The position numbers were made by a program, and so were the translations under genes. This document shows positions 3,165 through 39,785 of a stretch of DNA of 64,000 bases, one piece after another (positions within the stretch are counted from its first letter, which is position 1; every line of letters begins with the position of its first letter). Source of the stretch: Chondrocystis sp. NIES-4102 (GTDB lineage: Bacteria; Cyanobacteriota; Cyanobacteriia; Cyanobacteriales; Xenococcaceae); contig AP018283.1 of the NCBI GenBank assembly GCA_002368355.1, positions 59,155 to 123,154 of the forward strand, read 5' to 3'. The notes below the pieces were generated by a model, which saw nothing but the letters and a program-made list of their open reading frames with translations, was not told the origin of the DNA and searched no databases.

Positions 3165-3175
3165 CCTAACAATTG

Positions 3176-3197: not shown

Positions 3198-3265
3198 TAA
3201 TACTCAATATTTGTTATTCATCAAAAAACAATTGACCGTGTTGGTGCATAAGCCTGTCTGGATAA

Positions 3266-6200: not shown

Positions 6201-6394
6201 TGGGGTGTTCTTACTGGTTGATTAAATATTTGGATAGATGTTGGATTACTTCGTATTACCCATCTAAATATGAGTTAGCAGGGCTTGCTAATTCACCTGA
6301 TGAAAAAAGAATACGTCAGAAAATTATGCAAAAGTATCCTAATACCCAAAAAGGTAAATGTCTTGCTTTAACAGAATATGCAGCTAATTATTAA
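3266..6394 (+). CDS. virB4: VirB3-VirB4 fusion, conjugative T4SS ATPase
   Basis: This 1042-aa protein is the motor ATPase of the secretion system, working at the inner membrane to drive pilus assembly and substrate transfer. The first 80 residues carry two membrane helices (about 30-50 and 54-73), then SWSLIAGRKSHDF and a VirB3/PrgI-like stretch, so VirB3 appears fused to VirB4. The C-terminal motor has Walker A GTTGSGKT near residue 640 and Walker B SLVVIDECPALF near 880. RISSDG and FGIDPNLG follow in the last 120 residues, where VirB4/TraC proteins carry conserved loops. Length is above the usual 800-850 because of the N-terminal fusion. It lies between the pilin and six further T4SS genes with 8 bp to the next start. 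ATPase call very sure, VirB3 fusion likely. Confidence 0.9.
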   Translation: MKHQNFEREILAEQIVTISALGEKSKVAIIPKEYILPWLIIVIVCIILYKFLQLFFNFGYFWIVLAIFWLCASWSLIAGRKSHDFTDEFYSLPLDNWIDLPHSFIPATDKMFIKSATLKFKPVKQVDRSLQVHKYIPFQNESELHGNIGINIGNQSFVSFLRCNPKTLKWSASVPFNLIGLHPQLTDSDIINQSNAISNALQDIPQGESICFMFGCRSKFSKRNRQLSELINEKFPIMGIILESEKLKTEEITRRGLRQEWHHYVMINWSERNQDLRQNLDTISIIINFCKNVFSDHFRSLLGTENSYWKNIYVKLGRDIYNNSFLPWKIRLESKGKLLLSSLDHSSAYELLASRFNNEIDRNLEYDIPQKINVSDVSGKLKHCVIVENPVHQKDLLSKLIEGDEGISNCPNHDKRRDIIRVRNDLIAILKMVVPPSKVPFGEQLFWVWNRMKEIEVRDTDVFVEITPGDKEQSRTNLTRLVRQSTYANRYAAKKGNVIDVEASNLSEEAIEAQKRLRSGTQPLIVSFTIHVYRQNDIELDIACERLIQLFAPAKLIREDKVCWKRWLESLPINNQKIQTSTEMFSEARMTSLDTLSVRSLLTLIRPRDIHSSGVEFIYTEGGYPIYINLVEKCMRGIITGTTGSGKTVMAFGHIKQALYREDRICVGFDMSNEGEGTLKPIVEMLGDDGAYINLVEQSINVLQPPDLRKYNLKVQKRRRKIWLESRKKILTAFAIGSNVRNDVNPDIISSIITLALEAFISDIDIVRRYNAALENGWKSPQWQKMPVLEDFLFFCTKDKLDISNFGAQQAEALDLIVTNIKAKLADPNIGECISKPSTVSPHARLQFFGLSGLSDDNNAYILSLVAQGACLNASLEYEKSLVVIDECPALFAKPGFTELVGMQFSLGRKEGTSVLLIGQNMEAITQCHNSSQIIRNTDFHFIGRISSDGIKHYADVLDIDPNNLRQNAGDTFGIDPNLGCSYWLIKYLDRCWITSYYPSKYELAGLANSPDEKRIRQKIMQKYPNTQKGKCLALTEYAANY

Positions 6395-6402
6395 AAAAAT
6401 CA

Positions 6403-7332
6403 ATGTCAATATTAAAAAGTAAAGTAAAGCCAGTAATGAAGCTATGCAAGTGCTTTGTATTAACTACAGCGACATTATTTTCTATAACTGTAAGTTCAGC
6501 AAAAAATGTATTCGCTCAAGTACCAATTGAATTGTCTACAGCTGGGTTCAGTGGAGGAACAATAACTTTTCCTAATGAAGATAATACTGATGTAGGAGAT
6601 ATAACTGGAATTGAAGAATTAACAGGGATTTCTGTAGATGATGTAACGGATATAAGTAATATTAGAGACATAGTTGATTTAATTGGAATTGGATCTATTG
6701 TTGATTTACTTCCTCCTGCCGTTGCAGAAGTTTTCAGCGATCTAAGTAGAATTGTTGGGGTAGTAGAAACATTTTTATCTGAATTAGGAATTCAAGTTGA
6801 TATAGGTGATTTGAACTTACCATATATTGAAGAGGCATTAGAATTATTTGAATCTAATAGTGAAATTGATATTGCTAGCGACGTTTTCGGCAGCCAAACA
6901 GGAAGCACTGTGATTATCGATGATACTCTTTACAAACAATATTTAAAAGATATAGCAAATAGATTTGCTCAAAATTCTACTCTTAGTAAGGATGGACAAA
7001 AAGTTACGGCAGAACAAATAAAAACAAGTCAAACTACATCTGAAATTAGCAATAGGCTGGCTCAAAATAGTAATAGACAAGATGTTTCTCAAAATATTTT
7101 GCGTAATATCTCAAATCAGCTTGCTCTGCAACAACAAATTGATAATATGAGTTTTTTCAATTTAAGTGAGGATAAAATAGCGCGATCGCTATTAGTATCT
7201 ATGCAGGGAGAAAGCTTAGTGGCCCTGGATAAAATAACTATTACTAGAGATAGAGAAACAGCGATCGCACTTAAATCAAGCACTTATTATCAAGGGCTAT
7301 TATCGATTCCAGCACAGCATTTATTACCTTAA
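6403..7332 (+). CDS. Secreted T4SS component, VirB5/TrbJ-like
   Basis: This 309-aa protein has a clear signal peptide ending VFAQ at about residue 39, so it is exported. The mature part begins with an acidic, low-complexity region rich in I, D and G (about 40-120). Its C-terminal 110 residues are helical and Gln/Asn-rich (SNRLAQNSNRQDVSQNIL, then SNQLALQQQIDNMSFF), like the helical bundle of VirB5/TrbJ minor pilins. It sits 8 bp after the VirB4 stop and one base before the VirB6-like gene, so it belongs to the operon. Position between VirB4 and VirB6 is where VirB5 normally lies. Sequence support is moderate because VirB5 is poorly conserved. HIP1 octamers occur at 7181 and 7260. Confidence 0.5.
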   Translation: MSILKSKVKPVMKLCKCFVLTTATLFSITVSSAKNVFAQVPIELSTAGFSGGTITFPNEDNTDVGDITGIEELTGISVDDVTDISNIRDIVDLIGIGSIVDLLPPAVAEVFSDLSRIVGVVETFLSELGIQVDIGDLNLPYIEEALELFESNSEIDIASDVFGSQTGSTVIIDDTLYKQYLKDIANRFAQNSTLSKDGQKVTAEQIKTSQTTSEISNRLAQNSNRQDVSQNILRNISNQLALQQQIDNMSFFNLSEDKIARSLLVSMQGESLVALDKITITRDRETAIALKSSTYYQGLLSIPAQHLLP

Positions 7333-7333
7333 T

Positions 7334-8425
7334 ATGAATAATTTGTTAGTAGCTCAAATAGCAACAGGTAACGAACTTAGTTTAAACATTTTAGAAAGAT
7401 CTCTAGAATTTTATCAACAAACAGGAGAATCCTGGGATCGTATGTGGGATTTAGTTGTTAATCCAACTCAACCTTTGTGGGTCGCAGCTATAGGAATTGG
7501 CAAATTTATTTTTGGCTTTTCATTATTTTTTTATACATATATAGTGATAGCTAAAATGGGTACAGTCAGTTCAACTAGAGAACTATTAGATCAAATGCCT
7601 CTACCATTATTTGTTTCTTTCATGTTTGCAGGAACAGGGCAATTGCTAGCTACTCTAGTCATAGGGTTGAAAGAAATTTTTCAGTATTTTATAGTTTTGA
7701 CATTGCAAATTCAAATAGCTGGGATCAGCGTTAATCAAGCGTTGCAAGATATTCAAAGTACGGCGATCGCTAATAATAGAGCAAGAATTATATTCTCCGA
7801 TTGCTTGTCGCAAACTGGATTACAATTAAATGATTGTATTAATGATCCTATTAAAATTCAGCAAGCTCAAGATTTGTTAAATGGATCAGGAAGAATATTA
7901 GGTGGTAATGTGTTAGAAGCAATATTGAGTGCTGTTACTGCCGATGGCAATACAGTGACTGATGCAGCTACTTCTTTTGCTGCTAGTGCTTTATCTACGG
8001 TATTTGGAAGTATATGGCTATCTATTGTTCAAGTAATTTTGCTAACTATCCAACACGTTTTTATTAATTCTATAGAAGCAACATCTTTATTAACCGCTAT
8101 TGCTGCACCTGTATTTTTAGGGTTTTCTTTATTTACTACTAATGCACCAATTTTTTACCTATGGATAAGTTCTTTTATAGGTTTATATTTCGTACAATTA
8201 AGTTATGTATTTTTAATTGGTTTTTATAGTGTGGTTGTCTCTCAATTAGATCAAGCAGGTGTTGAAGTGGGTACTATCATTTTAGACCTTGCTTTTTTGT
8301 TTTTTGTTTCAATATTTTCTCCGATAATTGCTATTTATATATCGTTAGGAGGTGGAGTAAAACTTTATGATCAAATAGCAAGTAATGTAGAAAAAGCTAT
8401 TACTTTAATAGTTTCGCAATTGTAA
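7334..8425 (+). CDS. Polytopic membrane protein, VirB6/TrbL-like
   Basis: This 363-aa protein has an N-terminal periplasmic-type stretch (residues 1-45, containing WDRMWDLVVNPTQPLW) followed by about six hydrophobic segments (near 50-75, 90-125, 215-245, 250-275, 283-310 and 320-345). This is the pattern of VirB6/TrbL, the polytopic inner-membrane channel component of type IV secretion. A Ser/Ala-rich region SFAASALSTVFGSIWLS lies at about 215-232. It starts one base after the preceding stop, showing tight coupling. The call rests on topology and operon position. Confidence 0.65.
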   Translation: MNNLLVAQIATGNELSLNILERSLEFYQQTGESWDRMWDLVVNPTQPLWVAAIGIGKFIFGFSLFFYTYIVIAKMGTVSSTRELLDQMPLPLFVSFMFAGTGQLLATLVIGLKEIFQYFIVLTLQIQIAGISVNQALQDIQSTAIANNRARIIFSDCLSQTGLQLNDCINDPIKIQQAQDLLNGSGRILGGNVLEAILSAVTADGNTVTDAATSFAASALSTVFGSIWLSIVQVILLTIQHVFINSIEATSLLTAIAAPVFLGFSLFTTNAPIFYLWISSFIGLYFVQLSYVFLIGFYSVVVSQLDQAGVEVGTIILDLAFLFFVSIFSPIIAIYISLGGGVKLYDQIASNVEKAITLIVSQL

Positions 8426-8440
8426 AAAAGCAACTAAATT

Positions 8441-9199
8441 ATGTTAAATAAAGGTAAAAAAACAAATATAATTGAACTCGAAGAAAAAACAGACTTAATT
8501 GAATCTAAAGATGGTAATAAAATTATCTTAATATTTTTTATATTAGGAATCTCCTTGTTTGTTTCAATTTTAGGTAATCTCGCTTTAATATATCTATCTG
8601 TTAATCTAGGTACAAGAGAGAAAATATTTGTAACTCGCAAAGGTGAAATTGAAATCGCTCAAGAAAAAGATCCTAATTTTCGTGATGAGAAGTTAATTGA
8701 AGAAACAGTTTCTAATTGGCTATATTTAACCCACGAATGGGATTCGTCTGTTCCAGGAAGTTCAGTTAAAGATTCAGGTGTTCAACTTGTTTCTAGTAAT
8801 AACAAATACTTCAAAGTTCCTACAAAAGTTTATTTGGCTTCTTACTTGTTAGAAATTGGGTTTAGAAAACAATATTTAGAAGAATTATCTAAATCAATTC
8901 CTTCTACATTTTACAGTGGCAAAGTAGAAAGTAATTTTAAACTTTATTTTATTGGAAATACGGAGCGAATAGATGATTATTTATATAAAACAGATGTAAT
9001 ATTTACTAGGACAGATGTAGAAGAGAATGTTGAAATAGCTGAAACTCAAATAAATCAAACAATATATTTGCAAGCGACAAAACCTTATCGTTTAATGCTT
9101 GGAAAAGAAGATCCTAGTATTTATAGAAAACAACTTAATCAACTTTTAAAAAACGGCTTAATTATATATAAAGTTTCTCCAAATATTTCCAAGTCATAA
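8441..9199 (+). CDS. VirB8-like T4SS inner-membrane protein
   Basis: This 252-aa protein has a cytoplasmic N-terminus of about 27 residues, one membrane helix (IILIFFILGISLFVSILGN, about 28-46) and a 200-residue periplasmic domain. That layout, the length and the position before the VirB10-like gene fit VirB8/TraJ-type assembly factors, which have an NTF2-like periplasmic fold. The domain contains SNWLYLTHEWDSSVPG and a C-terminal beta-rich stretch QTIYLQATKPYRLMLGKEDP, consistent with that fold. Gap to the previous gene is 15 bp and to the next 18 bp. Confidence is moderate because no strict VirB8 motif can be checked by eye. Confidence 0.6.
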   Translation: MLNKGKKTNIIELEEKTDLIESKDGNKIILIFFILGISLFVSILGNLALIYLSVNLGTREKIFVTRKGEIEIAQEKDPNFRDEKLIEETVSNWLYLTHEWDSSVPGSSVKDSGVQLVSSNNKYFKVPTKVYLASYLLEIGFRKQYLEELSKSIPSTFYSGKVESNFKLYFIGNTERIDDYLYKTDVIFTRTDVEENVEIAETQINQTIYLQATKPYRLMLGKEDPSIYRKQLNQLLKNGLIIYKVSPNISKS

Positions 9200-9217
9200 A
9201 TAACATATCATGAAATA

Positions 9218-10660
9218 ATGAATAATATTACCACTGATAATAATTATCTAAATTTTGATGAATCAGAAAATATTGAATCGAATCAATCTAAGTCAACATC
9301 AAAGGATACTCAAATTAGTGAAGAAAATCAATTTACTATAACAGATTTTGCAATTTTAGCCAGGAAAGCAAGTGGGCGTAATTATAATCATTCTTCTAAT
9401 TTACTCGATCCTCAAGATAATGAGGATGGGAAGGAGCAATTTAATTCAGAGAAGGAAGAAGATGAGAATTTATCGCCTTCTTTACAGAAAATAAATCTTC
9501 GCAAACCATATTTTAAGATTATCGTAGGAATCGCTATCACTAGTATTGTGGCTTTTTCTCTACTTTTCATGCGATATAGTTGGTCTAAAGTCATGAATGC
9601 AGGTAAAAATATAGAACAGACTGAAAACAAATTTTCTATTGATCCACGTAAACAAGAAATTGATAAATTAAAAGCTGAATTAGCATTAATAGAACAAAGT
9701 AAACAACCTATTAAACCCGAACCTGAACCTGAGCCTCAACCTCAACCTGAACCCGAATCTCAACCTGAGCCTCAACCTGAGCCTCAACCTGAGCCTCAAC
9801 CTCAACCTGAACCTGAACAAATCAATCCTTACGAAAGATGGCAAACTTTAGCTCTGTCTGGAACTATGGGAGACTCTAGCAATATTCAACAATTAAATAA
9901 AAATAAAAATTCTAATTTAAAGAATATTTCTCAATTGCCAGGCACTTTAATTGCTAGTAACGATTTGAATCGTTTAGCTTTAAAACAATTGTCTAATCGT
10001 AATAAAACACGTTCACATTCAAAACTAAATTATGTAAACGCACTTACGCCTGGTATTAAAATCCATGAAGACGCTCAGAATATAATTATTAATGGATTAG
10101 GAGGCTATAAACGTTCTAATTTAGAACCTGTAGTAAAATCTCAACCATTAGCAGTTACATCAATAGTTAAAGCAGAATTAGTTACTCCCATTATTTGGAC
10201 TGGAAACTCAGATCCACAAGAAATAAGAGGAAAAATTATATTATCTGAACCTCTTTTATTAGAAAACGGCAGCGTAGGCTTACCTATAAACTCTTCCTTA
10301 ATAGTCGAAGTTTCTGATTGGTATAGCGGTTTTGCTTCTTTAAATATAATTAGTATCTCTTATAAAAATAATCAGGGTAAACTTATACAACAAAAGATTC
10401 CATCTAAAAGTTTATTAGTTAAAGACAAAAATTATGAACCCATAAAATTTAAAGAAAAATCTGGTAATGATTCTAATTTTTTAGATAAAGTATTTGAACA
10501 GGCAGTAGATACATTACCTATTCCTAATGACGTTGGTCGAGTCTTAAATGGAACAATTAATGACTCCAATTCAAATAGTTCAAGAAATACTATATTGCAT
10601 ATAGAAGCAAATCAAGAAGTTTTAGTCTACGTAAATAAGTCAATCAACATTAAAGAATAA
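9218..10660 (+). CDS. virB10: VirB10/TrbI-like T4SS scaffold protein
   Basis: This 480-aa protein should span the envelope and link inner- and outer-membrane parts of the secretion channel. A cytoplasmic tail (1-99) precedes one membrane helix (IIVGIAITSIVAFSLLFM, 101-118). A coil-like segment and a Glu/Gln-Pro repeat region (about 165-200, EPEPQPQPEPESQPE) follow, typical of the VirB10/TonB periplasmic stretch. The C-terminal domain (about 310-480) contains TPIIWTGNSDPQEIRGKI and VEVSDWYSGFASLNIISI, resembling the beta-barrel domain of VirB10/TrbI. The repeat is encoded by near-identical CCTGAACCT/CCTCAACCT units at 9717-9815, which could expand or contract. It lies one base from the VirB9-like gene. 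Confidence 0.75.
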   Translation: MNNITTDNNYLNFDESENIESNQSKSTSKDTQISEENQFTITDFAILARKASGRNYNHSSNLLDPQDNEDGKEQFNSEKEEDENLSPSLQKINLRKPYFKIIVGIAITSIVAFSLLFMRYSWSKVMNAGKNIEQTENKFSIDPRKQEIDKLKAELALIEQSKQPIKPEPEPEPQPQPEPESQPEPQPEPQPEPQPQPEPEQINPYERWQTLALSGTMGDSSNIQQLNKNKNSNLKNISQLPGTLIASNDLNRLALKQLSNRNKTRSHSKLNYVNALTPGIKIHEDAQNIIINGLGGYKRSNLEPVVKSQPLAVTSIVKAELVTPIIWTGNSDPQEIRGKIILSEPLLLENGSVGLPINSSLIVEVSDWYSGFASLNIISISYKNNQGKLIQQKIPSKSLLVKDKNYEPIKFKEKSGNDSNFLDKVFEQAVDTLPIPNDVGRVLNGTINDSNSNSSRNTILHIEANQEVLVYVNKSINIKE

Positions 10661-14714: not shown

Positions 14715-15722
14715 CTCTTCTCCAGATTTTTTGATTTATAAAAACTATTTTTTCAACGATGTAGCTAATAACAACGGGTGTGAATTATTATCTAACTTGG
14801 GTGGTAGGTGTTCCACAGCCATAATATTACAAAGTACGTGTAATATAGATTGAAAATATAAATAAAAGATAATAATATTTCTTCCTACTCAAATATATTT
14901 AAAAAGTATTTTAAGAGATATATATGTAAGAAAACTACTAAAAAAATCTTTTAAGCTGTTTAATAGCTGTAAAAATACCGATGATAATGTCATCGCAGTC
15001 AAATAATATATTTATATAATGAGTAATAACTTTACTACAAAGCAGTTTACACTCGTCGAGGTTATTAATATCGAAGCATTCTACTTCGTAACAATGGAGC
15101 ATCATTAAATTAATTATGTTTCAGCTTATATTTTAATATGCTACACAGATATTTTATCTGCACGTAAAATATAGATAACTTATTTTTATATGTATCTAAT
15201 GCGATCATTATATGCTTATTTACTATAATAGTCATCTTATAACTATATAACTAAAGATATCTTCCAAATTGAAAGATAGAAAAACATTGTTAATGATTTA
15301 AATGATACTTAGATAATAGTATACAGCAAAAGTACAGAATAAGATACTTGAGATAAAATATTATTATCAATAAATAGTTATCTTGTTTGTATAAGCTAGA
15401 TACAAACCATTTTACGTCTCCAAAAAGTTTGAATTAGGGTAAGCAAAGCGATCTGAAATATTGATAATGAATACTGTATTACATAGGTCTGAGCAATATG
15501 GATTAAAGAAAATATTTGAGCAAGTTATAGCGTAGCGGTTGTGATTCGCTTTTAATTAAGCATTTTGTAACTAATTGGTAGTTACGCAAATCACAAATAA
15601 CTAGCATGGGGGTCTGTGGAACTCCCCAGGTAGAGAAAACCTTTACTTGAAACTTTTATAACGTAATATAATTGCACTACACTTATTATTTATATAATAC
15701 ACAAAATTAGATTAACCAGATT
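14715..15722. other. One-kb AT-rich non-coding region upstream of rep (candidate origin)
   Basis: No gene-like frame is seen over about 1,000 bp. The sequence is very AT-rich and holds several short inverted repeats. These include CGATGAT-aatgt-CATCG near 14979, CGAAG-cattcta-CTTCG near 15073, CAGATA-ttt-TATCTG near 15147, and GGGG-gtctgtggaact-CCCC at 15607-15626. Its position directly upstream of the rep gene makes it the best candidate for the replication origin and the rep promoter. I could not find a clean iteron array by eye. Confidence 0.4.
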
Positions 15723-17710
15723 TTATATTCTTCTAAACCTAGTTATTGGTAATCGAAAGGTAAATTCAGTTCCATTATCAGAAGATGAGATCCAAATATC
15801 ACCTTTGCGAAGATGAAGAATTCTTTTACATAAATAAAGACCGATTCCTTGTCCCCCCCTATATGAGACAAAAGGCTTAAAAACTTCGTTTTTTAAGTTT
15901 TCAGGTATACCAATTCCATTATCTTTTACTTTAAATTCGATTAAATTATTTTTACATTGAACTTTTATTTGTATAATTCCTGGTTCTGTATTCTCTTTAG
16001 GGGAAACTGCATAAAAAGCATTATCAAGCAAATTGTCAAGAACTATTTCTATGGCAATAGTATCTATAACTACGCTACCTATTGAATTATCAAATTCTTT
16101 ATATATTTGTACAAAATATTCATAATTATTTTCCTCGATAAAACGTTCAATTATACTTGTCACTAATGATTTTAAATTAACTTTTACTAATGCGTTAGTT
16201 TTATTTAAATAACCGTAATTAATAAAAAGTCCTAAGCGAACTCTATATCGCTCAATTTTTTTTGTTTGAATTATAATATTATTATTTCTTTTAAGAATAA
16301 TTGGAAGTTGTTCTTCAATCTCATTAACAGTTAAAGAGGAGTCTAATAATTTATTTTTAATTTTTATTAATTCTTTTTCAGTACGGTATTGACTTGATTT
16401 GATAGAATTTAAAGGATTTCCTAGAGAATGATGTAAATCATTAACATAACATTCTAGTCTAGAAAAATTTTCTTCTTTTATTTTCCAATAATAATAATAA
16501 TAGAATGATAGACATAATAAATATATATTAACAACTGGTATACCTATAGGAATCCAAACACCTATTCTAAAGCAAAATATGTTTATTATTAGTAAAGCTA
16601 TAAAAATAACACTACTACAAATAAAAGATTTTAAATATATCTCAATAATATTTAAAAGTGAATTTGATAAATAAATTAAATAACTAATTAATATAGTTAA
16701 TGATATAATCAAGATTATAATTTCATTATAAATATTAATAGGGTTAATCAGAGGTCTATTATCAAGAGCAGCACTAATAATTGAACTAGCTACTTGGGCA
16801 GGTATCTCTAAACCATAAATCCACGGTAAGGTACTCCAACGATTTAAAGCTATATAATGTCTATCTGCTGTCGATGCCGAAACATTTCCAATTATAACAA
16901 TGCAATTATCAAATAATTGCGAATCTACTTCATCTTTAATAACATCAATTACGGATACTCTTCTGAAAACCTGTTTCGCTTTACGCCAATTAATTAAAAA
17001 ATGATATCCATATGGATCATTTTTGGGGATGCCTACAAAATTTTTAGTAGGCTTTAAAATTATTGATTTATTATGGTTAAATATTTTAAGAATATTATTT
17101 TTTTCTTGTATTCCTTTAGCATTCCATCCTTCAACAGATAGATATTGGAATCCTAAAGCTACTCCAAAATAAGGAATGCCCGCAGGTTTACCAACTTTAT
17201 TTTGTTCAGGAAATACATATGATCTTCTAATTAAATTATCGTAATCACTTGGAATATCTGAGGCTGCTACAAAATTTTTGTCTTTAAGAATTTTTGGTGC
17301 ATTAACTAAGGGTTCAATTACTTTTTCAATACCTATTATATTATCTGTTAATTTAAACAAATTTTGTAAATCATTGTAAGCTTTTATATTTACTTCGTCC
17401 GTAAATCTTGGTGAAAAAACTGGAAGATCTCGGTATAAATCAAGTCCAATAATTCTAGGCTGCTGTTGAGATATTTTTTTTAACAAAGAAAATAAACTAT
17501 TATCAGATATAATACTTTCTTTTAAAAAATTAATACTTTCCTCATCCCATTCAACGAGAACAATTCTATCTTCAGTTAATTCTAATGGTTTTATTACAAA
17601 GTTTAAATCATATATTAAAGTATTAACATAAGGAGAAATTTTAAAAATACTAACTATAAGTACTAAGATGAAAAAGAATTTTTTTTTAAAACTTTTTTAA
17701 AATAATTCAT
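15723..17710 (-). CDS. CHASE2-domain sensor histidine kinase, frameshifted in a poly-A tract near the 5' end
   Basis: The uninterrupted frame covers 15723-17486 and beyond, and codes for a CHASE2 extracellular sensor (SQQQPRIIGLDLYRDLPVFS and IDVIKDEVDSQLFDNCIVII), three membrane helices, and a histidine kinase core. The H box is DLHHSLGNPLNSIKSS, the N box NLLDNAFYAVSP, the G1 box VKDNGIGIP and the G2 box GGQGIGLYLCKRI, so the kinase looks intact. The paralogue at 25903 shows that about 75 N-terminal residues are missing from the simple frame. They are present upstream, starting at ATG 17710 (MNYFKKVLKKK...), but one base is missing in the run of nine A (T at 17679-17687). It is the last gene of the peptide, ABC exporter, adaptor, kinase series. 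It may be phase-variable, slippage-read, or a base-calling error. Confidence 0.8.
17679..17687 (-). repeat. Homopolymer A9 (sense strand) at the frameshift of the CHASE2 kinase
   Basis: Nine T on the plus strand are nine A in the gene. With ten A the frame from ATG 17710 (membrane anchor) would join the CHASE2 frame exactly as in the paralogous protein at 25903. With nine it stops early. Such tracts are typical sites of slippage, and also of long-read base-calling errors. Confidence 0.7.
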
Positions 17711-17832
17711 AGTTTAAATATAAAATTTTGTAATCAATATTTGTAAATATTTTAATTAACATATTGAATAATATTACTATTTCACATTGTCAACACGCTC
17801 TAATATATAATATAATAGTTTGGCAAATAAAT

Positions 17833-19563
17833 TTAATTATTGATTAAAAACGAAATAATATTCTCTTTCCGAACAATAACTTCTGCTTTCCCAGTATGAC
17901 CGTAACTCAAAAGTTTTAAATATTTAAAATCATAATTGGAATTTAATCTTATTTCCACATCAAAAACCTGCTCATTATCATTATTAATTTTTGAGGAGGG
18001 GGCAATAAAGCTAATTTTACCTGTCAGCACACCAAATTCACGCCAAGGAAAAGCATTTACTTTTATCCTCGCTGGAAGTCCTACTTTTAAAAATGCAGAA
18101 TCCTTACTTTTTATCTGTCCCCGAAAAACTATATTTGATTCTTCTGGTGCAATATTCATTAGAGGCTGACCTTGTTTAACCATAACTCCAGAATGACTAA
18201 CAATATTCTCAAAAATTATACCATTTATTGGAGCATGAATAATTTGATCATTTATTTGATAGTTTATAATTTTGATTAAATTCTGTGTTAATTGAATTTC
18301 ATTAGATAAATTAACAATTTCATTATTAATTTTGTCTACTTCTTGTTGAACTTCAATTATTTTAATTTTAAACTCTTGCTCTAGCACGGTGAGTTGAGAC
18401 AATTTTTCTACATAAACATATTTTGAAGATTCAAACTCCTTTTTAGCTTGAAATATATTTTGTTTTTCTTGCTCTAATATTTGTCTTGCTTCTAAAACCA
18501 TTATTTGTGGAAAAATCTCTTTATTCTTAGAATTTGAATATAGTTTATATTTATTTTCTGCAATTTTCAAATTAGTTTCTACCTCTAACAATTCAGATTT
18601 TTTAGTTTTAATTAAATTTTGAGATTGTGTTAATTGAGCTTGTTTTTCAGTTAATTTCGATTTAAACTGAATATTAAAATTTAATAGGGATTGTTCTAAT
18701 CTATCTTTAGATTTTTTTAATTGTACTAATTTTTTATTTTGATTAATTAATTGTGTTTGCTTTTGTGATTTTTCTACAAAATTTAATTTTGAATCTAAAA
18801 TTAGCAATGGTTGATTTTTTTTAACTTTTTGCCCAGATTTAATTTTAATTGACTTAACTTTTCCTGTAACTGGAGAATCTATAACTCTAATGTTTGCTTC
18901 TGGCTCTAATTTACCTTCAATACTACTTACTTTCTCAAATTTAGAAGAAAATAGCCATAATACAAAAGTCAAAATTATAGTCAACATCACATATAGCAAC
19001 AATCGTAGGTATATTTTGGGCATTCCCTCAAGTTTTTCTTGAGTTACTGTTGTCCAATTTTCAATACATTCGTTTTCTTTCTCCATTTGTAAAGATAGCA
19101 GAGAAGAATTAATGTAACCTTTAGATGTTGCAATTATCGCTAATTCTAATTCTTGTAATGAACTTTTCATAATATATCCATCTGCACCTGCATTAATAGC
19201 TTTATAAATAAAATTATTATCTTCATTTATACTAGAACTATAAATTAATATTTTTGGTGCTTTATCAATATATTCTTTAATGTCAGCAATTATCTTTATA
19301 ACATTATATATAGATGCTACGGAATTATTTAAATCGTTTTGATACTTTAAAACCCCTATTTCAGGATTGATTAACACTACATCTGGTAAAACATTATTTA
19401 ATTTGTAAAGTATTAATTTTCCATTATTTGCTGTACTAATAATATGAATTAATTGGTTATTTAAAAAATATTTATCAATAATAGAACAATTGATTTTACT
19501 ATCTATTATAAAAACTCTAATTGGTTTTATAGTATTAGACTGATGATTATTATCGAAAACCAT
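17833..19563 (-). CDS. Receiver-like domain fused to an HlyD-type membrane fusion protein
   Basis: This 576-aa protein joins a response-regulator-like domain (residues 15-155), one membrane helix (about 184-206) and an HlyD/periplasmic-adaptor body. The adaptor has the first lipoyl half (SPVTGKVKSIKIKSGQKVKK, about 230-249), a long coiled coil (about 262-420), the second lipoyl half (HAPINGIIFENIVSHSGVMV) and a C-terminal barrel. It lies 5 bp after the ABC exporter and should be its adaptor towards the outer membrane. The receiver is degenerate. The phosphoacceptor position is Asn66 (DVVLINPEIG), only one of the acidic pair is kept (FIIDSK, Asp21), while Ser109 and Lys133 (GYIMKSS) remain. 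It is therefore probably a docking or pseudo-receiver rather than a phosphorylated switch. The fusion is visible; its role is inference. Confidence 0.8.
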   Translation of the reverse strand: MVFDNNHQSNTIKPIRVFIIDSKINCSIIDKYFLNNQLIHIISTANNGKLILYKLNNVLPDVVLINPEIGVLKYQNDLNNSVASIYNVIKIIADIKEYIDKAPKILIYSSSINEDNNFIYKAINAGADGYIMKSSLQELELAIIATSKGYINSSLLSLQMEKENECIENWTTVTQEKLEGMPKIYLRLLLYVMLTIILTFVLWLFSSKFEKVSSIEGKLEPEANIRVIDSPVTGKVKSIKIKSGQKVKKNQPLLILDSKLNFVEKSQKQTQLINQNKKLVQLKKSKDRLEQSLLNFNIQFKSKLTEKQAQLTQSQNLIKTKKSELLEVETNLKIAENKYKLYSNSKNKEIFPQIMVLEARQILEQEKQNIFQAKKEFESSKYVYVEKLSQLTVLEQEFKIKIIEVQQEVDKINNEIVNLSNEIQLTQNLIKIINYQINDQIIHAPINGIIFENIVSHSGVMVKQGQPLMNIAPEESNIVFRGQIKSKDSAFLKVGLPARIKVNAFPWREFGVLTGKISFIAPSSKINNDNEQVFDVEIRLNSNYDFKYLKLLSYGHTGKAEVIVRKENIISFLINN

Positions 19564-19568
19564 ATTGA

Positions 19569-22331
19569 TTACGTATGTAAATTCGATTGCTGACTGACTA
19601 AATGGTGATAAATTTTTCCATTATTAATTAATTGAGCATGAGTACCACTCTCTACTAACTTTCCATTATCTAAAACTAAAATTAAATCTGCATTTTTAAT
19701 AGTAGAAAGGCGATGAGCAATAATTAAAGTTGTTTGATTTGCTAAAATGCTACGTAAATTTTTCTGAATTAAGTTTTCTGATTCAGTATCAAGACTACTA
19801 GTGGCTTCATCTAAAATTAACAAACTTGGGCTTCTTAATATAGCTCTTGCAATCGCTAATCTTTGCTTTTGTCCTCCAGATAATAATCCTCCTCCTTCTC
19901 CAATTTTAGTATTATATTTTAAAGGAAAATTATCAATAAAGCTGGCTGCACAAGCTAATTGACAAGCTGATTCTATTTCTTTCATTGTTGCATTAGGATT
20001 AGCAATTAAAAGATTTTCTTGAATTGTTCCTCCAAAAAAAAAGGTATTTTGATCTACAATTCCAACTTGATTTCTTAAAGAACGCAACGAAATGTTTTTG
20101 ATATTTTGATTATCAATTAATATTTCACCTTGTTGAGGTTGATAAAGCCCCAAAATTAACTTAGATAAAGTAGTTTTTCCTGAACCACTACGACCTACTA
20201 AAGCTACAGTTTGTCCTGGTTTGATTTCAAAACTAATATTATCTATAATATTATTTATACTCTTATTACTATATTTAAAATATACCTGATTAAAAATGAT
20301 GTGACCTTTAAAAGATTTAATATCTATTAAATTTGAGCCACTAATTCCAGTTTCAGGAGTAGATTCTATAACATCACTACAACGTTCAATAGATATTCTG
20401 ATTTCTTGGAAATTATGCCAAAGTAGATTAAGCCTTTTAACTGGATCTATTACTTGACCAACCAACATATTAAAAGCAATTAGTTGTCCAATTGTAAGTT
20501 GATTATGAATTACTTGCCATATACTTAATAATAGTACTGATATAGATATAATTGTTTCACTTAAACTACTAATCAAAGATAATTTTTCTACTGTTATTTG
20601 ATTTGAAAAATATAACTTGATATATTTATTTAATAAATTTTCCCAATTCCAACGGATAGATTGCTCTATTCCCATTGATTTGATTGTAGAAATTCCTGAG
20701 AAAATTTCAATTAAATAAGATTGTTCTTTTGTTCCTTCGTTAAATACTTCCCTTGATAAAGACATTAACTTGAAAGTAGATAATAAAGTTATTAGTAATA
20801 AAATAGGAACGATAGATAAAGCTAAAAAAGATAATGTCCAGGAATACCAAAACATTAAACTAGTATAAACGAAAATACTAATCAAATCAAGAATAGTGGT
20901 AATTGCATCTGTTGTAATAAATTGTCTAATTTTCCGATTTTCAGAAATTCTTGAAATAATATCACCAACATAACGAGATTCAAAATAAGATATTGGAAGT
21001 TTTAGAGCATGATTAATAAAATTTGTTATTAAATTAAGATCCAAACGATTTGCAGTGTGAAATAATAAATATTTCCTAATACTTATTAATATTATTTGTG
21101 AAGTACGAATAATATATAATCCAGATCCAATTGCCCAAAATGTTAAAATTGCATTTGAGGAAATTACTTCATCTAATAATATTTGCGTAAAAACTGGTGT
21201 AATTAAACCTATTATATTAATTACTATAGATGCTATAAAAATTTCTAAAAAAATTATTCTATACGGACGTAAAAATGTAAGAAATTTTAGAAGAGATTGT
21301 TTTGATCGTTGATTGTAAAATTTTGTTGTTGGATTTAACCATAAACCATATCCTGTCCAATTAGCCAAAAAATTATCTCTTGATATAGTGCGTTGTCCGA
21401 TTTTAGGATCACTAATAATTATTTTATTTTTACTAATTTTGTAAACCACTACATAATGATTTGCTTGCCAATGAGCTATCGCGGGTAATATATTTGTCTC
21501 CAATCCCAATAAATCAGATTTTCCAGCTATAATATTAAATCCGATCGCCTCTCCTGCATCCATTAAATTTTGTAGAGAAGCTCCTGAACGATCAATATTT
21601 GCTTGATCAACTATTGTTTTATAATCTATATCTTTACCCCAATAACGAGATATCATTTTTAAACAAGCTGCACCACAATCAGAATTACTATGTTGCTTAT
21701 AAAAAGGATAATTAAATACCTTTTTCTGAAAAAAGTAATATATTTTTATAAAATTTGGTAACTTTGAGTTTGTAGTTATTATTTGCCATGCGCTTTCTCC
21801 AATATTTAAAAAGTTCCATTTATTTCTTGAATATGATTGCGAAATTCGATTATCAGCGACATTCATTACTTTCCTAAAGGGTGACGGCAGCCCCTGGGTT
21901 GACAACCCAGGGGTCGCGTCACGCTTAAATTGCACTGATTCATCGCAATTTTGATATTTTGAGTTGCCCTTAAATGTATTATTACAATTGTATTTAACAC
22001 TAGTTTCAATATGTTGCGACTTATTAACAATTTCTCTTTGCGATATAATATTATGATGTTGTTCTAAAGAGTTCGAGTTCGCTTGAACAATGTTTTGATT
22101 ATTTTCTATAATAAAATCCGAGTTTTTTCCACATATAATGCAGCAGTCAGATAAAATTAGCCATTCACCGTGCGTAGGTAAATTTTCAAATTGGTATTTT
22201 TTACCTTCGGTTATTTCAAATTGGGATGAATGTATTATAATCCCCTGCACTAATTTCAACCAATCATTATTTTTTAAATGTTTCAAGAAGTCTGAACCAC
22301 TAATTAAACTAGGTTGAAAATATAATTTCAT
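19569..22331 (-). CDS. C39-peptidase ABC exporter (bacteriocin/GG-peptide type)
   Basis: This 920-aa protein processes and exports peptides with double-glycine leaders. A C39 protease domain (about 206-335) has Cys219 in SDCGAAC, His292 in NHYVVVY and Asp308 in SDPKIG, the full catalytic set. Six membrane helices follow (about 355-640). The ATPase has Walker A GRSGSGKTT, signature LSGGQKQRLA, Walker B LLILDEATSSLD and H-loop IIAHRLS. The first 200 residues are an extra region absent from short PCAT exporters. It includes a 42-bp palindromic repeat read in frame (residues about 137-150, containing DATPGLSTQG). It sits between the double-glycine peptide gene upstream and the HlyD adaptor downstream. 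All catalytic parts look intact. Confidence 0.93.
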   Translation of the reverse strand: MKLYFQPSLISGSDFLKHLKNNDWLKLVQGIIIHSSQFEITEGKKYQFENLPTHGEWLILSDCCIICGKNSDFIIENNQNIVQANSNSLEQHHNIISQREIVNKSQHIETSVKYNCNNTFKGNSKYQNCDESVQFKRDATPGLSTQGLPSPFRKVMNVADNRISQSYSRNKWNFLNIGESAWQIITTNSKLPNFIKIYYFFQKKVFNYPFYKQHSNSDCGAACLKMISRYWGKDIDYKTIVDQANIDRSGASLQNLMDAGEAIGFNIIAGKSDLLGLETNILPAIAHWQANHYVVVYKISKNKIIISDPKIGQRTISRDNFLANWTGYGLWLNPTTKFYNQRSKQSLLKFLTFLRPYRIIFLEIFIASIVINIIGLITPVFTQILLDEVISSNAILTFWAIGSGLYIIRTSQIILISIRKYLLFHTANRLDLNLITNFINHALKLPISYFESRYVGDIISRISENRKIRQFITTDAITTILDLISIFVYTSLMFWYSWTLSFLALSIVPILLLITLLSTFKLMSLSREVFNEGTKEQSYLIEIFSGISTIKSMGIEQSIRWNWENLLNKYIKLYFSNQITVEKLSLISSLSETIISISVLLLSIWQVIHNQLTIGQLIAFNMLVGQVIDPVKRLNLLWHNFQEIRISIERCSDVIESTPETGISGSNLIDIKSFKGHIIFNQVYFKYSNKSINNIIDNISFEIKPGQTVALVGRSGSGKTTLSKLILGLYQPQQGEILIDNQNIKNISLRSLRNQVGIVDQNTFFFGGTIQENLLIANPNATMKEIESACQLACAASFIDNFPLKYNTKIGEGGGLLSGGQKQRLAIARAILRSPSLLILDEATSSLDTESENLIQKNLRSILANQTTLIIAHRLSTIKNADLILVLDNGKLVESGTHAQLINNGKIYHHLVSQQSNLHT
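21881..21922. repeat. Palindromic mini-element read in frame inside the ABC exporter
   Basis: A 42-bp near-perfect inverted repeat has the arms GTGACGGCAGCCCCTGGGTT and AACCCAGGGGTCGCGTCAC. It is far more GC-rich than its surroundings and a multiple of three, so it adds 14 residues without breaking the frame. The encoded DATPGLSTQG resembles DATPSLTSQG from the repeat at 42943-42987, showing that they belong to one family. Confidence 0.75.
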
Positions 22332-22366
22332 AAATATATTTAAATATTATTAAAAACAAAATACAT

Positions 22367-22402
22367 AATTTTAAAGGCAGGTTTTGTCCTGCCTTTAAAA
22401 TT
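22367..22402. terminator. 15-bp stem terminator-like hairpin between peptide gene and exporter
   Basis: AATTTTAAAGGCAGG pairs perfectly with CCTGCCTTTAAAATT around a 6-nt loop. It stands 77 bp after the peptide stop (reading minus) and 36 bp before the exporter start. It is GC at the loop end with A/U at the base and could terminate in either direction. The likely effect is a strong short peptide transcript with partial read-through into the exporter genes. Confidence 0.7.
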
Positions 22403-22478
22403 ATACGTTTTAACGTACTTAATTATTTTGATGTATTCAAATAAAATATTTATAAATTATCTAAATACATTAAATACA

Positions 22479-22739
22479 TTATGTTTGAGAATTCATTTGA
22501 ACGACTGAGGCTGAATTATTTCCTGTAGAGCTAATATAACTTGTTATACTGCTATAGCTATAACCCGAATTATTATAACTTTTAGAAGTGATGGATACCC
22601 CTCCATTTTTTAGTTGCTGAATATCTACATCATCTCCAACAACAGTAGCACTAAAATCAGGTATAGAATAAGTATATGACTCACCCCCGCAAACTGATTT
22701 TAACTCATCTTCACTAATTTTTTTTATTCCTTCAAACAT
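22479..22739 (-). CDS. Double-glycine leader peptide, probable substrate of the C39 exporter
   Basis: The 86-aa product starts at ATG 22739, set by AAGGAGAT seven bases upstream. A longer frame from 22769 would swallow that ribosome site. The leader MFEGIKKISEDELKSVCGG has the classic hydrophobic/acidic spacing and the Gly-Gly cut site recognised by C39 proteases. The predicted mature part of 67 residues begins ESYTY and is rich in Ser, Tyr, Asn and Thr. It has no Cys and little positive charge, so it does not look like a membrane-active cationic bacteriocin. It could be a secreted signal, adhesin or matrix peptide. The C39 exporter follows on the same strand after a terminator-like hairpin. 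Substrate role very likely, function unknown. Confidence 0.85.
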   Translation of the reverse strand: MFEGIKKISEDELKSVCGGESYTYSIPDFSATVVGDDVDIQQLKNGGVSITSKSYNNSGYSYSSITSYISSTGNNSASVVQMNSQT

Positions 22740-23180
22740 GATGAATCTCCTTAGATTTGTAATTGTCAATTATTAACAACTAGTTAATAACTTAAATATT
22801 TTTAAAAGAGAAATTTGTAAATATCTCTTTTAATGTTAAATATCAAACGAATTTAATTTAAGCAAATTAAACAAATGTTGCACAAATTAAGCGCGTATAG
22901 TGAGCTTGATTCATAATAAGTAAAATACAATAAAACGTTATTATTGTCAATACTTTCGTTGTGATTGCCTTACAGGACTTATGTAAAAATAAACTGCCCT
23001 TTAAAGAGAAACAAGACTAAGATTCCATTTTGGTAAGTTTTATGAGAATTGTTAAAATTACAATTTAAACAATCAAATCGTAATTCTATTATTATAAGTA
23101 TTTTCGATTAAATAAGTATTAAAATGTTTACCCTTTTAAATTATTTAGGATGACATAGAAAAGGCAGCAGAAATACAGGG
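22740..23180. other. Promoter region of the peptide gene, AT-rich
   Basis: About 440 bp lie between the double-glycine peptide gene and the IS debris. Apart from the ribosome site of the peptide gene at 22746-22752 and a likely promoter further upstream, I see no gene, second leader peptide or strong repeat. Confidence 0.35.
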
Positions 23181-23690
23181 CTATTTCATTTTAAAAAGAG
23201 ATAAAACATGGTCGAGGTTAAATTGACATTTGCGCTTTGCTTGAGCCATGTTATAAAATCCTGCGTCGCGATATAAGTTAATAGCTAAGTTACGAGCGAT
23301 GGCTAAAATATGAGGCAAAATGCAGTACGAACTCGTGATTTGTCTTCACCGAAGGTGACATCTCGAACATAATGAACTTTGTTTTCAATCCCCCAATAGC
23401 CACGTATTCTTTGATAGAAATCAAAAGCTGAGTCAGATAAGTCTGAAATATAATATTTAGTCTCAGATTCTAGTTTATGCCTTGTTTGACGTTAGGATTC
23501 AACTTTGACAATAGTTTTAACATTTAACCAGCCAGGAAAATTAAAGTTAGATTGAGTAATGCTGACAATTCGCTTTTTAATCCTTTCATGTCCTTTCTCA
23601 ATCTTGGCAAAAGTTTGTTAATTAACGAATTGCTCTCGAACAGATTGATAGAGTTTGGGTTGATTTCCTTTCACTGCTGCAATTATGTTC
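23181..23690 (-). pseudogene. ISAs1-family transposase, C-terminal remnant
   Basis: Reading minus from about 23690, the fragments AAVKGNQPKLYQSVREQF, then RIRGYWGIENKVHYVRDVTF and GEDKSRVRT, then ARNLAINLYRD, match the C-terminal half of ISAs1-type DDE transposases (VKGNQ and the HWGIEN region). Several frameshifts and stops (for example after REQFVN and after TAFCLIF) make it inactive. Its 5' part is missing: at about 23690 it is joined directly to an IS982-type fragment. Confidence 0.75.
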
Positions 23691-23941
23691 GAGTAGATAC
23701 TGACAGGCATTTGATTGATTTCCCTTAAAAAATTTGGCTGCGACTAACCCTGTCGTAATCACCTCAGGATCACTCATTTGAATACGACAATCCTCTAGAT
23801 GTCCAGTAGCTTTGAGTAAATCTTCGACTATGGCATAAATCGTTATAATTTCATCAAGCATTTTATTCTCTCCATACTTTTTGCTTCTGGAGAGATTTTC
23901 TTATTTTTAGCTTCTCTGTCTCAATAACTAGCAACTTGGGT
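23691..23941 (-). pseudogene. IS982-family transposase, N-terminal remnant with IS end
   Basis: The minus strand from ATG 23861 encodes MLDEIITIYAIVEDLLKAT and KMSDPEVITT-like residues (QMSDPEVITTGLVAAKFFKG), the typical start of IS982 transposases. The similarity stops at about residue 57, where the sequence changes into the ISAs1 remnant. The outer boundary is probably at 23941, where the minus strand begins ACCCAAGTTGC. A CTCTCC/GGAGAG hairpin lies just inside it. Confidence 0.65.
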
Positions 23942-25234: not shown

Positions 25235-25903
25235 ATGAATATTAATACAATAAAAAGGATTATGATAATTGCCACCATATTAAATACATTATTTATTACT
25301 TCAAATATTCATGCGAATCTTTTAGGAGATTATATTGCCTCAGATAATCCATATAAAGTTGATCAAAGAAGAACTTTGGGTACTGGCTCTCGCTCAAATT
25401 GTAACAATCAGTTAAAAAATGGATCAATAGAATTAATTGTACCCTCAATGAAAGTAGTACATTTTACTACGCAAGCTCGACCTAATCTATATTTATCTTC
25501 TAAAAATAATTATCAAAATCCATTTAAGTTTTTTCTTATAGATGCTCAATCTGCGAAAACGATAGCGCAAAAAGACATATTAATTCGTACTGGTGTTAAT
25601 CAAATTTCATTACCTTCATCCGTAAATCTTAAAACGAATAGAATTTATTTATGGTATATTGGAATACCATGTGGCAATAATGACAATCAGTATGAGGTAT
25701 TAAATTCTTCTTTAAAAAGAATTTTGCCAAATTCTAATTTAGCGAATAATCTTAATTTTAATAAGACTAATGAACAGCTTGCTAAAATATATGCAATAAA
25801 TGGAATTTGGTACGATGCTATAGATTATGCATTTAAAAGTAATTCTACATCTTACATTAATCAATTATTATTAAGCGCAGGAGTTAATCAAATTAAATAT
25901 TGA
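25235..25903 (+). CDS. DUF928-family exported protein
   Basis: This 222-aa protein has a signal peptide ending about NIHA at residue 28. The DUF928 features are visible: GTGSRSNC near residues 50-57 (the usual GTRG.C motif), LIVPSMKVVHFTTQARPNLY with the TT..RP pattern, and RIYLWYIGIPCGNN (the WY..I.C motif) near 137-150. DUF928 proteins are secreted cyanobacterial proteins often encoded next to CHASE2 or CHAT proteins; their role is unknown. The stop overlaps the ATG of the CHASE2 gene by one base (TGATG), so the two are translationally coupled and probably act together outside the cytoplasmic membrane. Confidence 0.85.
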   Translation: MNINTIKRIMIIATILNTLFITSNIHANLLGDYIASDNPYKVDQRRTLGTGSRSNCNNQLKNGSIELIVPSMKVVHFTTQARPNLYLSSKNNYQNPFKFFLIDAQSAKTIAQKDILIRTGVNQISLPSSVNLKTNRIYLWYIGIPCGNNDNQYEVLNSSLKRILPNSNLANNLNFNKTNEQLAKIYAINGIWYDAIDYAFKSNSTSYINQLLLSAGVNQIKY

Positions 25904-27894
25904 TGAAGTTCATTAGAAATAACAAACCATTAAAAAATTTAATAATATTTTTAATATTAATTTTGCTTATTACTAATGTATTTTTTAAAGGCATAGTAAA
26001 ATATATTAATTTGAAAATTTATGATTTTAATTTTTTAATACGTGGTTTTGAGACAATAGATGAAAGAATTGTGACTGTTGGTTGGGATGAAAGAAGTATA
26101 AAGTTTTTTCAAGAGACAATTATATCCGATAATACATTATCTGTAGTTTTAGATAAAATTAGTCAACAACAGCCTAGAGTAATAGCATTAGATTTATATC
26201 GTGACTTACCTGTATTCTCACCAAGACTTACAGATGAACTAAACATCAAAGCTTATAACGATTTGCAGAAATTGTTTAATTCAATACCCAATATAATAGG
26301 CATTGAAAAAGTAGTAAATCCTATAATTAATTCACCTACTATACTTAAAAATAGAAAATTAGTAGCATCTTCAGACATACCTATTGATATTGACAATATA
26401 ATTAGAAGATCCTTTGTGTTTCCTGAAGAAAATAAAAAAGGTGAACCTGCTGGTATTCCATATTTAGGTGTAGCAGTAGGTTTTCAATATTTGTCTGCTG
26501 AAGGATGGAACGCTGTAGCTTCAAAAGATGGGAATCATCATCTTTCCATTCTTAATGGTAGAAAATCTATATTAATTAATCCTGTAAATAATTTTGCTGG
26601 TATCTCTGAGCATAATCAATACGGCTACAATTTTTTAGTTAATTGGCGCAAAGCAAAACCTGCTTTCAACAAAGTTTCAATAATTGATGTTATTAACAAT
26701 GAAGTAGATTTACAATTGTTTAATGATCGCGTTGTGATAATTGGAAACGTTTCAGCCTCGACAGCAGATAGACATTTTATACCTTTAAATCATTGGAGTT
26801 CTTTACAGTGGAGTTACGGCTTAGAAATACCTGCACAAGTAGCCAGTTCTATTATTAGTGCTGCTCTTGACGATAGACCCTTACTTTCAACTACCAGCAA
26901 ATTAAATAATTTCATCTTTTTAATTATTATTATATTTTTAATTATTAAATATCAAAATAAATTAATCATATATAATAATACTAAAGATTATGCTGTCAAG
27001 CTTCTATATTTTATAATGGGAACTTCTATTATAATATTTATAATTAATATTATTTCATTTAATATAGGTTTGTGGTTGCCAATATGTATACCAATTATTG
27101 TTATATGGATGCTTTACGCTTTGTTGGTTTTTACTTTTTATTTAAATTACGAAAATAAAAATAAAAATGAGCTTAATTTATATATGCAAAATATAAATTA
27201 CCTTTATATTGATTCTTTAGAAAGGATTTATTTTAATATTAATAAAATCAAAGATGTTTCTAAAAAGCTCGAATTATTGTTAATTAAAAAAGACCAAAGT
27301 GATATTAAAGCAAATATAATATCAAAGCGAATAGTTAATATAGAAATATATATAGATAAAGTAAAAAGACAAAGAAAAAGTTTAGAAGAACTTATATATT
27401 TTAATTATATAAATAATAATAATAAATTTGATAAGATAATAGTTAATCAATTAGTTAATAATTTAATTGAGCGATTAATACAAGAAAATAGTTATTTTAA
27501 ATATATAAAAATAAATACTATATTTGATCCATATTTAAGCGTTAAAAAAGTAGTTATAAATGTTAAAGCTATAGAGATTGTATTAGAAAACTTATTAGAT
27601 AATGCTTTTTATTGTGTAAATTTACAAGTATTTAATAAAAAACCTATTATTACTATAAAGACCTTATATAGTAATAATTTTTTATATATTAGTGTAAAAA
27701 ATAATGGATTTGGTGTTCCCAAACATTTACATAAAGAAATATTTGAACCTTTTTCATACCAAGGGGAACAAGGAGTTGAATTATATTTATCCAAAAAAAT
27801 TGTTAACTTTTATCGGGGTAATATAGAAGTTAAAAGTGACTTAGATAACGATGGGATTGAATTTACTTGCGTACTACCAGTATATTCTTCTTAA
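25903..27894 (+). CDS. CHASE2-domain protein with a degenerate histidine kinase core
   Basis: This 663-aa protein starts at ATG 25903 (a TTG at 25900 precedes it). It has an N-terminal membrane helix (about 14-30), a CHASE2 sensor (about 35-310, ISQQQPRVIALDLYRDLPVF), three membrane helices (about 325-410) and a kinase-like C-terminus. It is a paralogue of the CHASE2 kinase at 15723 but has lost key residues. The H box region reads MQNINYLYIDSLERIYF with no His, the G1 box reads VKNNGFGVP (Asn for the ATP-binding Asp), and G2 reads EQGVELYLSKKI (Glu for a Gly). The N box ENLLDNAFYC is kept. It is most likely a pseudokinase that senses and signals allosterically. It is coupled to DUF928 and converges, overlapping by 4 bp, with the helical gene. 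Confidence 0.85.
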   Translation: MKFIRNNKPLKNLIIFLILILLITNVFFKGIVKYINLKIYDFNFLIRGFETIDERIVTVGWDERSIKFFQETIISDNTLSVVLDKISQQQPRVIALDLYRDLPVFSPRLTDELNIKAYNDLQKLFNSIPNIIGIEKVVNPIINSPTILKNRKLVASSDIPIDIDNIIRRSFVFPEENKKGEPAGIPYLGVAVGFQYLSAEGWNAVASKDGNHHLSILNGRKSILINPVNNFAGISEHNQYGYNFLVNWRKAKPAFNKVSIIDVINNEVDLQLFNDRVVIIGNVSASTADRHFIPLNHWSSLQWSYGLEIPAQVASSIISAALDDRPLLSTTSKLNNFIFLIIIIFLIIKYQNKLIIYNNTKDYAVKLLYFIMGTSIIIFIINIISFNIGLWLPICIPIIVIWMLYALLVFTFYLNYENKNKNELNLYMQNINYLYIDSLERIYFNINKIKDVSKKLELLLIKKDQSDIKANIISKRIVNIEIYIDKVKRQRKSLEELIYFNYINNNNKFDKIIVNQLVNNLIERLIQENSYFKYIKINTIFDPYLSVKKVVINVKAIEIVLENLLDNAFYCVNLQVFNKKPIITIKTLYSNNFLYISVKNNGFGVPKHLHKEIFEPFSYQGEQGVELYLSKKIVNFYRGNIEVKSDLDNDGIEFTCVLPVYSS

Positions 27895-39758: not shown

Positions 39759-39785
39759 ATAATAAATTAAACTACATAAACTCAA

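Follow-up and report, generated by a model that had tools for sequence, protein, structure and literature searches.

A receiver-like domain on the HlyD adaptor of a C39 peptide exporter in Chondrocystis sp. NIES-4102, and a cyanobacterial family of receiver-bearing adaptors as candidate phosphorylation gates of export

The cyanobacterial bacteriocin clusters described by Wang, Fewer and Sivonen in 2011 (PMC3140520) include groups I and II, composed of a C39-peptidase ATP-binding cassette exporter (C39-ABC), an HlyD protein, SurA, and double-glycine (GG) precursors, and the main text of that article, by a count of terms, calls HlyD single-domain and contains none of the terms response regulator, receiver, histidine kinase, and CHASE2. 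Escherichia coli HlyD has a cytosolic N-terminus and one transmembrane (TM) helix according to the account given in PMC10386944, which also cites Zhao et al. (2022) for a contact, needed for secretion, between the C39-like domain of the exporter and residues 35-50 of HlyD. This paper describes a locus of Chondrocystis sp. NIES-4102 in which a C39-ABC exporter is encoded beside an HlyD-type adaptor with an N-terminal receiver-like domain. The locus lies in a stretch of 64,000 nucleotides (the window; assembly GCA_002368355.1, contig AP018283.1, positions 59,155 to 123,154) that closes contig G000:C3 (123 kb), one of seven in a genome of 5.0 Mb. The data lean, by a modest degree, towards a reading in which the unit is a C39 peptide exporter whose adaptor belongs to a family that would be gated by phosphorylation, in which the adaptor of the window, lacking the phosphoacceptor, is probably no longer switched, and in which the adjoining CHASE2 kinase probably moved in.

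The exporter unit is of the known cyanobacterial C39/HlyD/SurA bacteriocin type. It resembles groups I and II, as presented in the main text of Wang et al., in having C39-ABC beside HlyD with GG peptides, and one relative of the window locus (L037) also has a peptidyl-prolyl isomerase (PPIase). The window locus differs in having a kinase and no PPIase, since the PPIase cluster (cl3), which has 20 members in the loci, is not represented among the open reading frames at 11-30 kb and a scan of 10 proteins gave no Rotamase match. With E. coli HlyB-HlyD it shares the architecture of a cytosolic N-terminus, one TM helix, and a periplasmic barrel and coiled coil; the cytosolic part, however, measures ~60 residues in HlyD, as given in PMC10386944, and ~180 residues with a receiver fold in the window adaptor. 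In NHLP bacteriocin export (TIGR03794/03796/03797) the adaptor of locus L211 likewise carries a receiver (TIGR03794 at 415 bits, the cut-off being 156, with partners exceeding the TIGR03796 and TIGR03797 cut-offs), whereas the window proteins stay below the NCBIfam cut-offs (55.9 vs 156.2 bits for HlyD; 548 vs 853 bits for ABC1), and assignment of the window system to NHLP was rejected. Non-DNA-binding response regulators also combine an N-terminal receiver with an output part, and the canonical receivers of the family match NarL/UvrY-type models; the difference is that the output here is a membrane fusion adaptor. To our knowledge, no response-regulator class with such an output has been described. 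A search of the open-licence literature found no description of adaptors, HlyD or periplasmic, that carry a receiver or response-regulator domain; in the parts of the HetC paper (PMC10986499) that were covered, none of the terms response regulator, HlyD, and CHASE2 appears, and receiver is used only in another sense.

On the minus strand of the window, genes for a GG peptide, a C39-ABC exporter, a receiver-TM-HlyD adaptor, and a CHASE2 histidine kinase follow one another, and all four were located by open reading frames or domain scans in the order and on the strand given in an initial annotation of the stretch. The adaptor gene (17833..19563, 576 aa) begins 5 bases past the exporter gene, and its product has the TM helix, lipoyl/barrel-sandwich domain, and coiled-coil hairpin of an HlyD-type membrane fusion adaptor, with matches to HlyD_3 (E 6.1e-17) and type_I_hlyD (E 2.6e-42; 145 vs 209 bits, below the curated cut-off). 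The receiver that the annotation placed on this adaptor is borne out as a predicted fold and is degenerate in sequence: residues 13-150 (19114..19527) have a receiver fold in the predicted structure by Foldseek comparison, and Response_reg is matched at E 0.0024 and 18.5 bits, below the Pfam cut-off of 30.2. The top 50 Foldseek matches by E-value were adaptors only, and the receiver matches came from a further look at the results. A receiver stands at the same place in 20 other same-family loci by profile, and Pfam agrees in the six that were scanned. The codon of Asn66 (19366..19368, minus strand) occupies the phosphoacceptor site in a column that is nearly invariant Asp, one residue of the acidic pair is left (D21), and the Lys is kept. 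On account of Asn66 and the single remaining acidic-pair residue, the domain is classed as receiver-like and not as a working receiver. Its terminal branch in the receiver tree measures 4.78 changes per site against a median of 0.21, while the exporter of the locus retains 55-59% identity to canonical exporters. A database search with adaptor residues 1-225 matched only the protein itself (1 protein, 1311 candidates), because the receiver is too diverged for a word-based search, whereas a profile of relatives succeeded; the precomputed annotation of the adaptor's own database entry (P0001) likewise shows no receiver.

The exporter (19569..22331, minus strand, 920 aa) matches Peptidase_C39 (E 1.6e-37, residues 208-336), ABC_membrane (3.6e-38), and ABC_tran (2.5e-37), which is the PCAT-type make-up of a single chain with the C39 peptidase at its N-terminus, a TM domain, and an ATPase; what we take, by eye, to be the Cys, His, and Asp motifs of a C39 peptidase can be read in its translation. 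Its five best matches show 55-59% identity, and their partners are receiver-HlyD adaptors in L038, L039, L043, and L040 and separate frames in L044, where the receiver-HlyD gene (7616-9606) is split into two frames and the neighbours are otherwise normal. Upstream, the GG peptide gene (22479..22739, minus strand) encodes 86 aa with the leader MFEGIKKISEDELKSVCGG, followed by ESYTY. Judged by eye, the leader presents the C39-leader pattern, with E-L at -8/-7, V at -4, and GG at -2/-1; the peptide had no Pfam match, and in NCBIfam leader_Chryseo reached only E 0.065. The 86-aa peptide would be the cargo of the adjoining exporter, its leader being cleaved by the C39 domain. A terminator-like hairpin (22363..22406, minus strand) separates the two genes; its stem of 19 pairs is the longest among seven terminator-like sites in 15200-23400, where shuffled sequences gave a mean of 1.8.

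In agreement with the initial annotation, receiver-HlyD fusions recur in cyanobacteria. Among the 27 genomes of the window's own family in the genome set, which also includes Stanieria cyanosphaera PCC 7437, a Xenococcus, and Hyella patelloides, profile searches found 22 window-type loci with a long C39 exporter in 14 genomes, counting the window and the split L044. A further 25 profile matches with open frames of 728-789 aa occur one each in 25 of the 27 genomes; the eight that were viewed with their neighbourhood all have receiver and HlyD and none has an exporter-type ABC gene in the stretch, a lone receiver-HlyD protein of this kind being encoded at 8155-10425 of L186. At E<=1e-30 the receiver-HlyD profile matches 334 clusters of the protein database, and a receiver is annotated in 120 of 120 among the matches listed, a ranking that favours receiver carriers since the profile itself contains the receiver. 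Database names for some of these proteins are response regulator, HlyD, or hemolysin D. A scan with a closer profile found receiver and HlyD in one frame in one of the best 80 of 550 loci (L076, on the same contig as L048), the rest being receivers without in-frame HlyD, and a class-wide search scored six candidates per genome and gives no frequency.

The residues required for phosphorylation are conserved in most of this set. In 153 aligned receiver-HlyD rows (120 proteins from the database and 33 rows from loci, one of them the window, with near-copies and some double entries), the phosphoacceptor position is Asp in 148, Asn in three (the window, L042, and P0009), and Gly in two, and the receiver Lys is kept in all 153. 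The receiver is placed upstream of a juxtamembrane segment common to receiver-less relatives: in the window adaptor this cytosolic segment and the single TM helix span residues ~168-206 (18946..19062, minus strand; by alignment, with the helix at 183-206 in the model), and a similar segment aligns in the receiver-less HlyD proteins L062, L064, and L065. We propose a receiver-HlyD adaptor family, defined by alignment as a receiver upstream of the juxtamembrane-TM segment of HlyD, to which the window adaptor belongs.

Neighbourhoods were surveyed in 51 receiver-HlyD loci including the window, with flanks whose length varies by locus; left out of this set were L044 (separate frames), L204 (the L049 region again), L201 (weak HlyD), L076 (copy of L048), and L001-L035. 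A C39-ABC gene lies on the same strand less than 1 kb away in 34 of the 51, one of which (L193) has a nearer ABC gene with a C39-like domain, and another ABC exporter is found at this distance and on the same strand in three more. Exporters of several kinds are involved: L212-L215 resemble the NHLP case L211 by profiles and tree, the receiver-bearing adaptors of L191, L193, L194, and L195 accompany exporters whose C39-like domain is weak (L191 above the type_I_sec_HlyB cut-off), those of L205 and L207 lie beside short C39 exporters with GG peptides, and that of L221 lies beside a glycosyltransferase (DUF3492 and Glycos_transf_1) whose make-up recalls PelF. Judged by these profiles and trees, the receiver is the same add-on on several adaptor types. 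On a quick tree of HlyD, nine changes of the receiver label are required, five of them forced by well-supported branches, and on a receiver tree six, with few resolved forks; both are quick trees with flagged long branches, above all that of the window, and they are compatible with a single as well as a repeated origin, so that the fusion may have arisen once or several times.

Gating of export by the receiver is suggested for the family by the topology of HlyD, the contact of HlyD with the C39-like domain, and the position of the receiver upstream of the shared juxtamembrane segment, which corresponds to the part of E. coli HlyD that makes this contact. From the HlyD topology, the receiver would be cytosolic, joined by a linker to the juxtamembrane segment; a kinase encoded elsewhere would phosphorylate it, the contact between adaptor and exporter would be altered, and export would be opened or closed. 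The claim of the initial annotation that export itself is the regulated output is plausible at the level of the family, because most of its members lie beside a C39 exporter and most of its receivers keep the phosphorylation residues, and probably does not extend to the window receiver, which lacks the phosphoacceptor. In the window, exporter and adaptor would work without phosphate control, or the receiver-like domain would serve as a fixed docking piece.

The neighbour test set by the annotation had two outcomes: a C39 exporter stands beside most of the loci, as the annotation requires, whereas a kinase is missing from nearly all of them, which counts against the annotation on this point. 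Within 5 kb, a histidine kinase occurs in the window and in L050 only, the latter not a CHASE2 kinase, and within 10 kb also, by profile, in L037, the single locus besides the window (1 of 50) with a CHASE2 kinase in the 10-kb flank. In L037, the genes for exporter, receiver-HlyD, and PPIase are followed on the same strand by ten in a row for GG peptides (2587-7328, minus strand), after which a CHASE2 kinase gene ends the run. Its receiver keeps an intact Asp, and its kinase failed to reach E 1e-30 against that of the window, which suggests that a kinase was recruited separately in each of the two loci. The other CHASE2 genes are a gene cut by the contig end in L214, which like the DUF928 gene there lies on the strand opposite to the adaptor, and a CHAT-CHASE2 gene (L204) at ~7 kb from the L049 adaptor, which Pfam does not identify as a histidine kinase and which has a DUF928 gene on the other strand; the neighbour in L049 is known only from a longer flank, taken because the CHASE2 scan pointed there. 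CHASE2 near two or three of 50 loci is a slight excess, and one of these genes encodes a histidine kinase as far as visible.

The kinase of the operon has its relatives elsewhere. Its open frame (15723..17696, minus strand) comprises 657 codons from stop to stop and matches CHASE2 (E 1.6e-34) and HATPase_c (1.2e-21), HisKA not being matched; His423 aligns with the H-box His, and the N and G boxes are present. Up to residue 71 the frame contains no ATG, GTG, or TTG. The closest ATG further upstream (17710) lies 122 bases from the adaptor stop codon and one base off the kinase frame, the two frames differing by one base at a run of nine A (17679..17687, minus strand), which may reflect an error in the assembly, slippage, or a genuine break. 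In a search of 60 genomes the nearest matches were full-length CHASE2 kinases, and DUF928 lies directly upstream on the same strand in all 11 relatives viewed, with neither C39 nor HlyD encoded in the surrounding stretch of any of them. Two high matches stand outside the 11, namely one in G025:C48 and a second CHASE2 kinase of the window (25900..27894, plus strand), which is 51% identical to the operon kinase, lies ~8 kb away behind a DUF928 gene (25235..25903, plus strand; E 3.8e-23), and has Tyr for the H-box His that 13 of 14 aligned kinases keep. By sequence the operon kinase belongs to the DUF928-CHASE2 gene pairs of cyanobacteria, from which it differs in having no adjoining DUF928. A conserved kinase linkage was rejected, and the kinase as a fixed partner of the exporter is not supported, as a CHASE2 kinase occurs in one of 50 other loci and the kinase relatives are linked to DUF928 in 11 of 11. 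The operon kinase is probably a DUF928-linked paralogue that recently moved in beside the operon, not a dedicated partner, and may control transcription elsewhere.

The likeliest alternative is that the kinase acts on transcription, of the operon or of other genes, through an unlinked response regulator, its position being due to chance or plasmid reshuffling. The exporter-free setting of all 11 DUF928-linked relatives fits this explanation, as do the 51% identical copy nearby and transposase-like remnants read by eye on the minus strand at 23160-23861, just upstream of the peptide gene (their part at 23622-23861 had no Pfam match); the same-strand position of the kinase directly downstream of the adaptor, with 122 bases between adaptor stop codon and nearest ATG, speaks against it, and we regard it as a real possibility that falls somewhat short of an even chance. 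A different proposal keeps a function for the degenerate domain as a pseudo-receiver, which would bind the kinase, another regulator, or the exporter peptidase domain independently of phosphate. The predicted fold is indeed kept despite the drift of the sequence, and Lys and one acidic residue remain, but the very long branch fits relaxed constraint equally well, and no close relative was found with which selection could be assessed; this proposal seems unlikely. For the family as a whole, the receiver could be merely a structural or placement module, export not being gated by phosphorylation. Since receivers are gained and lost among similar adaptors beside similar exporters in the HlyD tree, export works without one, which agrees with such a module; a mere scaffold would, however, have no need of an Asp kept in 148 and a Lys kept in 153 of 153 rows, which makes this explanation rather improbable. 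That the neighbouring CHASE2 kinase phosphorylates or docks on the adaptor receiver and thereby gates peptide export, as the initial annotation held, is very improbable, for although the genes adjoin on one strand, the kinase keeps its H-box His and N/G boxes, L037 offers a second CHASE2 kinase in a same-strand exporter/receiver-HlyD/GG-peptide run, and three of 50 other loci have a CHASE2 gene of one kind or another nearby, phosphotransfer to the window receiver is contradicted by Asn66, the kinase frame has no usual start, only one of those three genes is a CHASE2 kinase, the others being the CHAT-CHASE2 gene and the cut opposite-strand gene, and the L037 kinase falls below E 1e-30 similarity to that of the window.

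Several observations weigh against the reading preferred here, namely a phosphorylation-gated adaptor family with a locked member and a relocated kinase in the window. The 51 loci are best matches rather than a random sample. CHASE2 genes of any kind near three of the 50 other loci (L037, L214, and L049) exceed the ~0.6 to 0.7 expected by chance from 79 CHASE2 matches in about 79 Mb (~1 per Mb) and about 640 kb of flank, and the run in L037 means that the linkage is not unique to the window. The structure model used an alignment of canonical relatives and is biased towards them. Conserved Asp and Lys are expected of any working receiver, and the receiver could be a scaffold. Finally, Asn at an acceptor site is occasionally deamidated to Asp.

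Some further features were observed in these genomes. In L197 (7558-9744), L198 (7717-9702), L199 (6520-8640), and L200 (3843-5942) a receiver is followed by ~540-610 residues without an HlyD-profile match, and L197 had no Pfam match beyond the receiver; these may be a different kind of receiver fusion. At 719-3185 of L038, receiver-HlyD/C39 has HopA1-domain and APH-like genes (Pfam) beside it, and the same two clusters occur in L039, L040, L043, L044, L046, L048, and L054; the pair recalls class V lanthipeptide synthetases, and some cargo would then be modified peptides. The window encodes another membrane protein with a receiver (Pfam 4.8e-21), here fused to a ferric-reductase-like membrane domain (2.9e-10; 40140-41327, plus strand) and followed by a gene for an NMT1-like protein (41314-42363). 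Two-partner secretion genes (ShlB/FhaC-type transporter and TPS-domain protein) are found at 35879-39785, adjoined by a CHAT protein, and at 52715-55270.

The interest of the locus lies with the receiver-HlyD family more than with the degenerate member in the window. Two-component control of secretion is usually pictured as transcriptional, and a phosphorylatable receiver in the adaptor would, if the reading is true, provide a direct and fast gate on export. More broadly, and tentatively, with somewhat less than even confidence, we propose that receiver-adaptors are response regulators with an adaptor as output, through which phosphorylation would directly gate peptide, NHLP, type I, and polysaccharide-linked export without transcription, the receiver acting as a portable switch that in the window is locked by loss of the Asp. 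In nature, similar exporters are accompanied by adaptors that have or lack the receiver and by receivers that have or lack the acceptor Asp, and this variation in the family makes export as a two-component output testable in cultured strains. If true, the proposal would assign outputs to proteins that are now named response regulator or hemolysin D.

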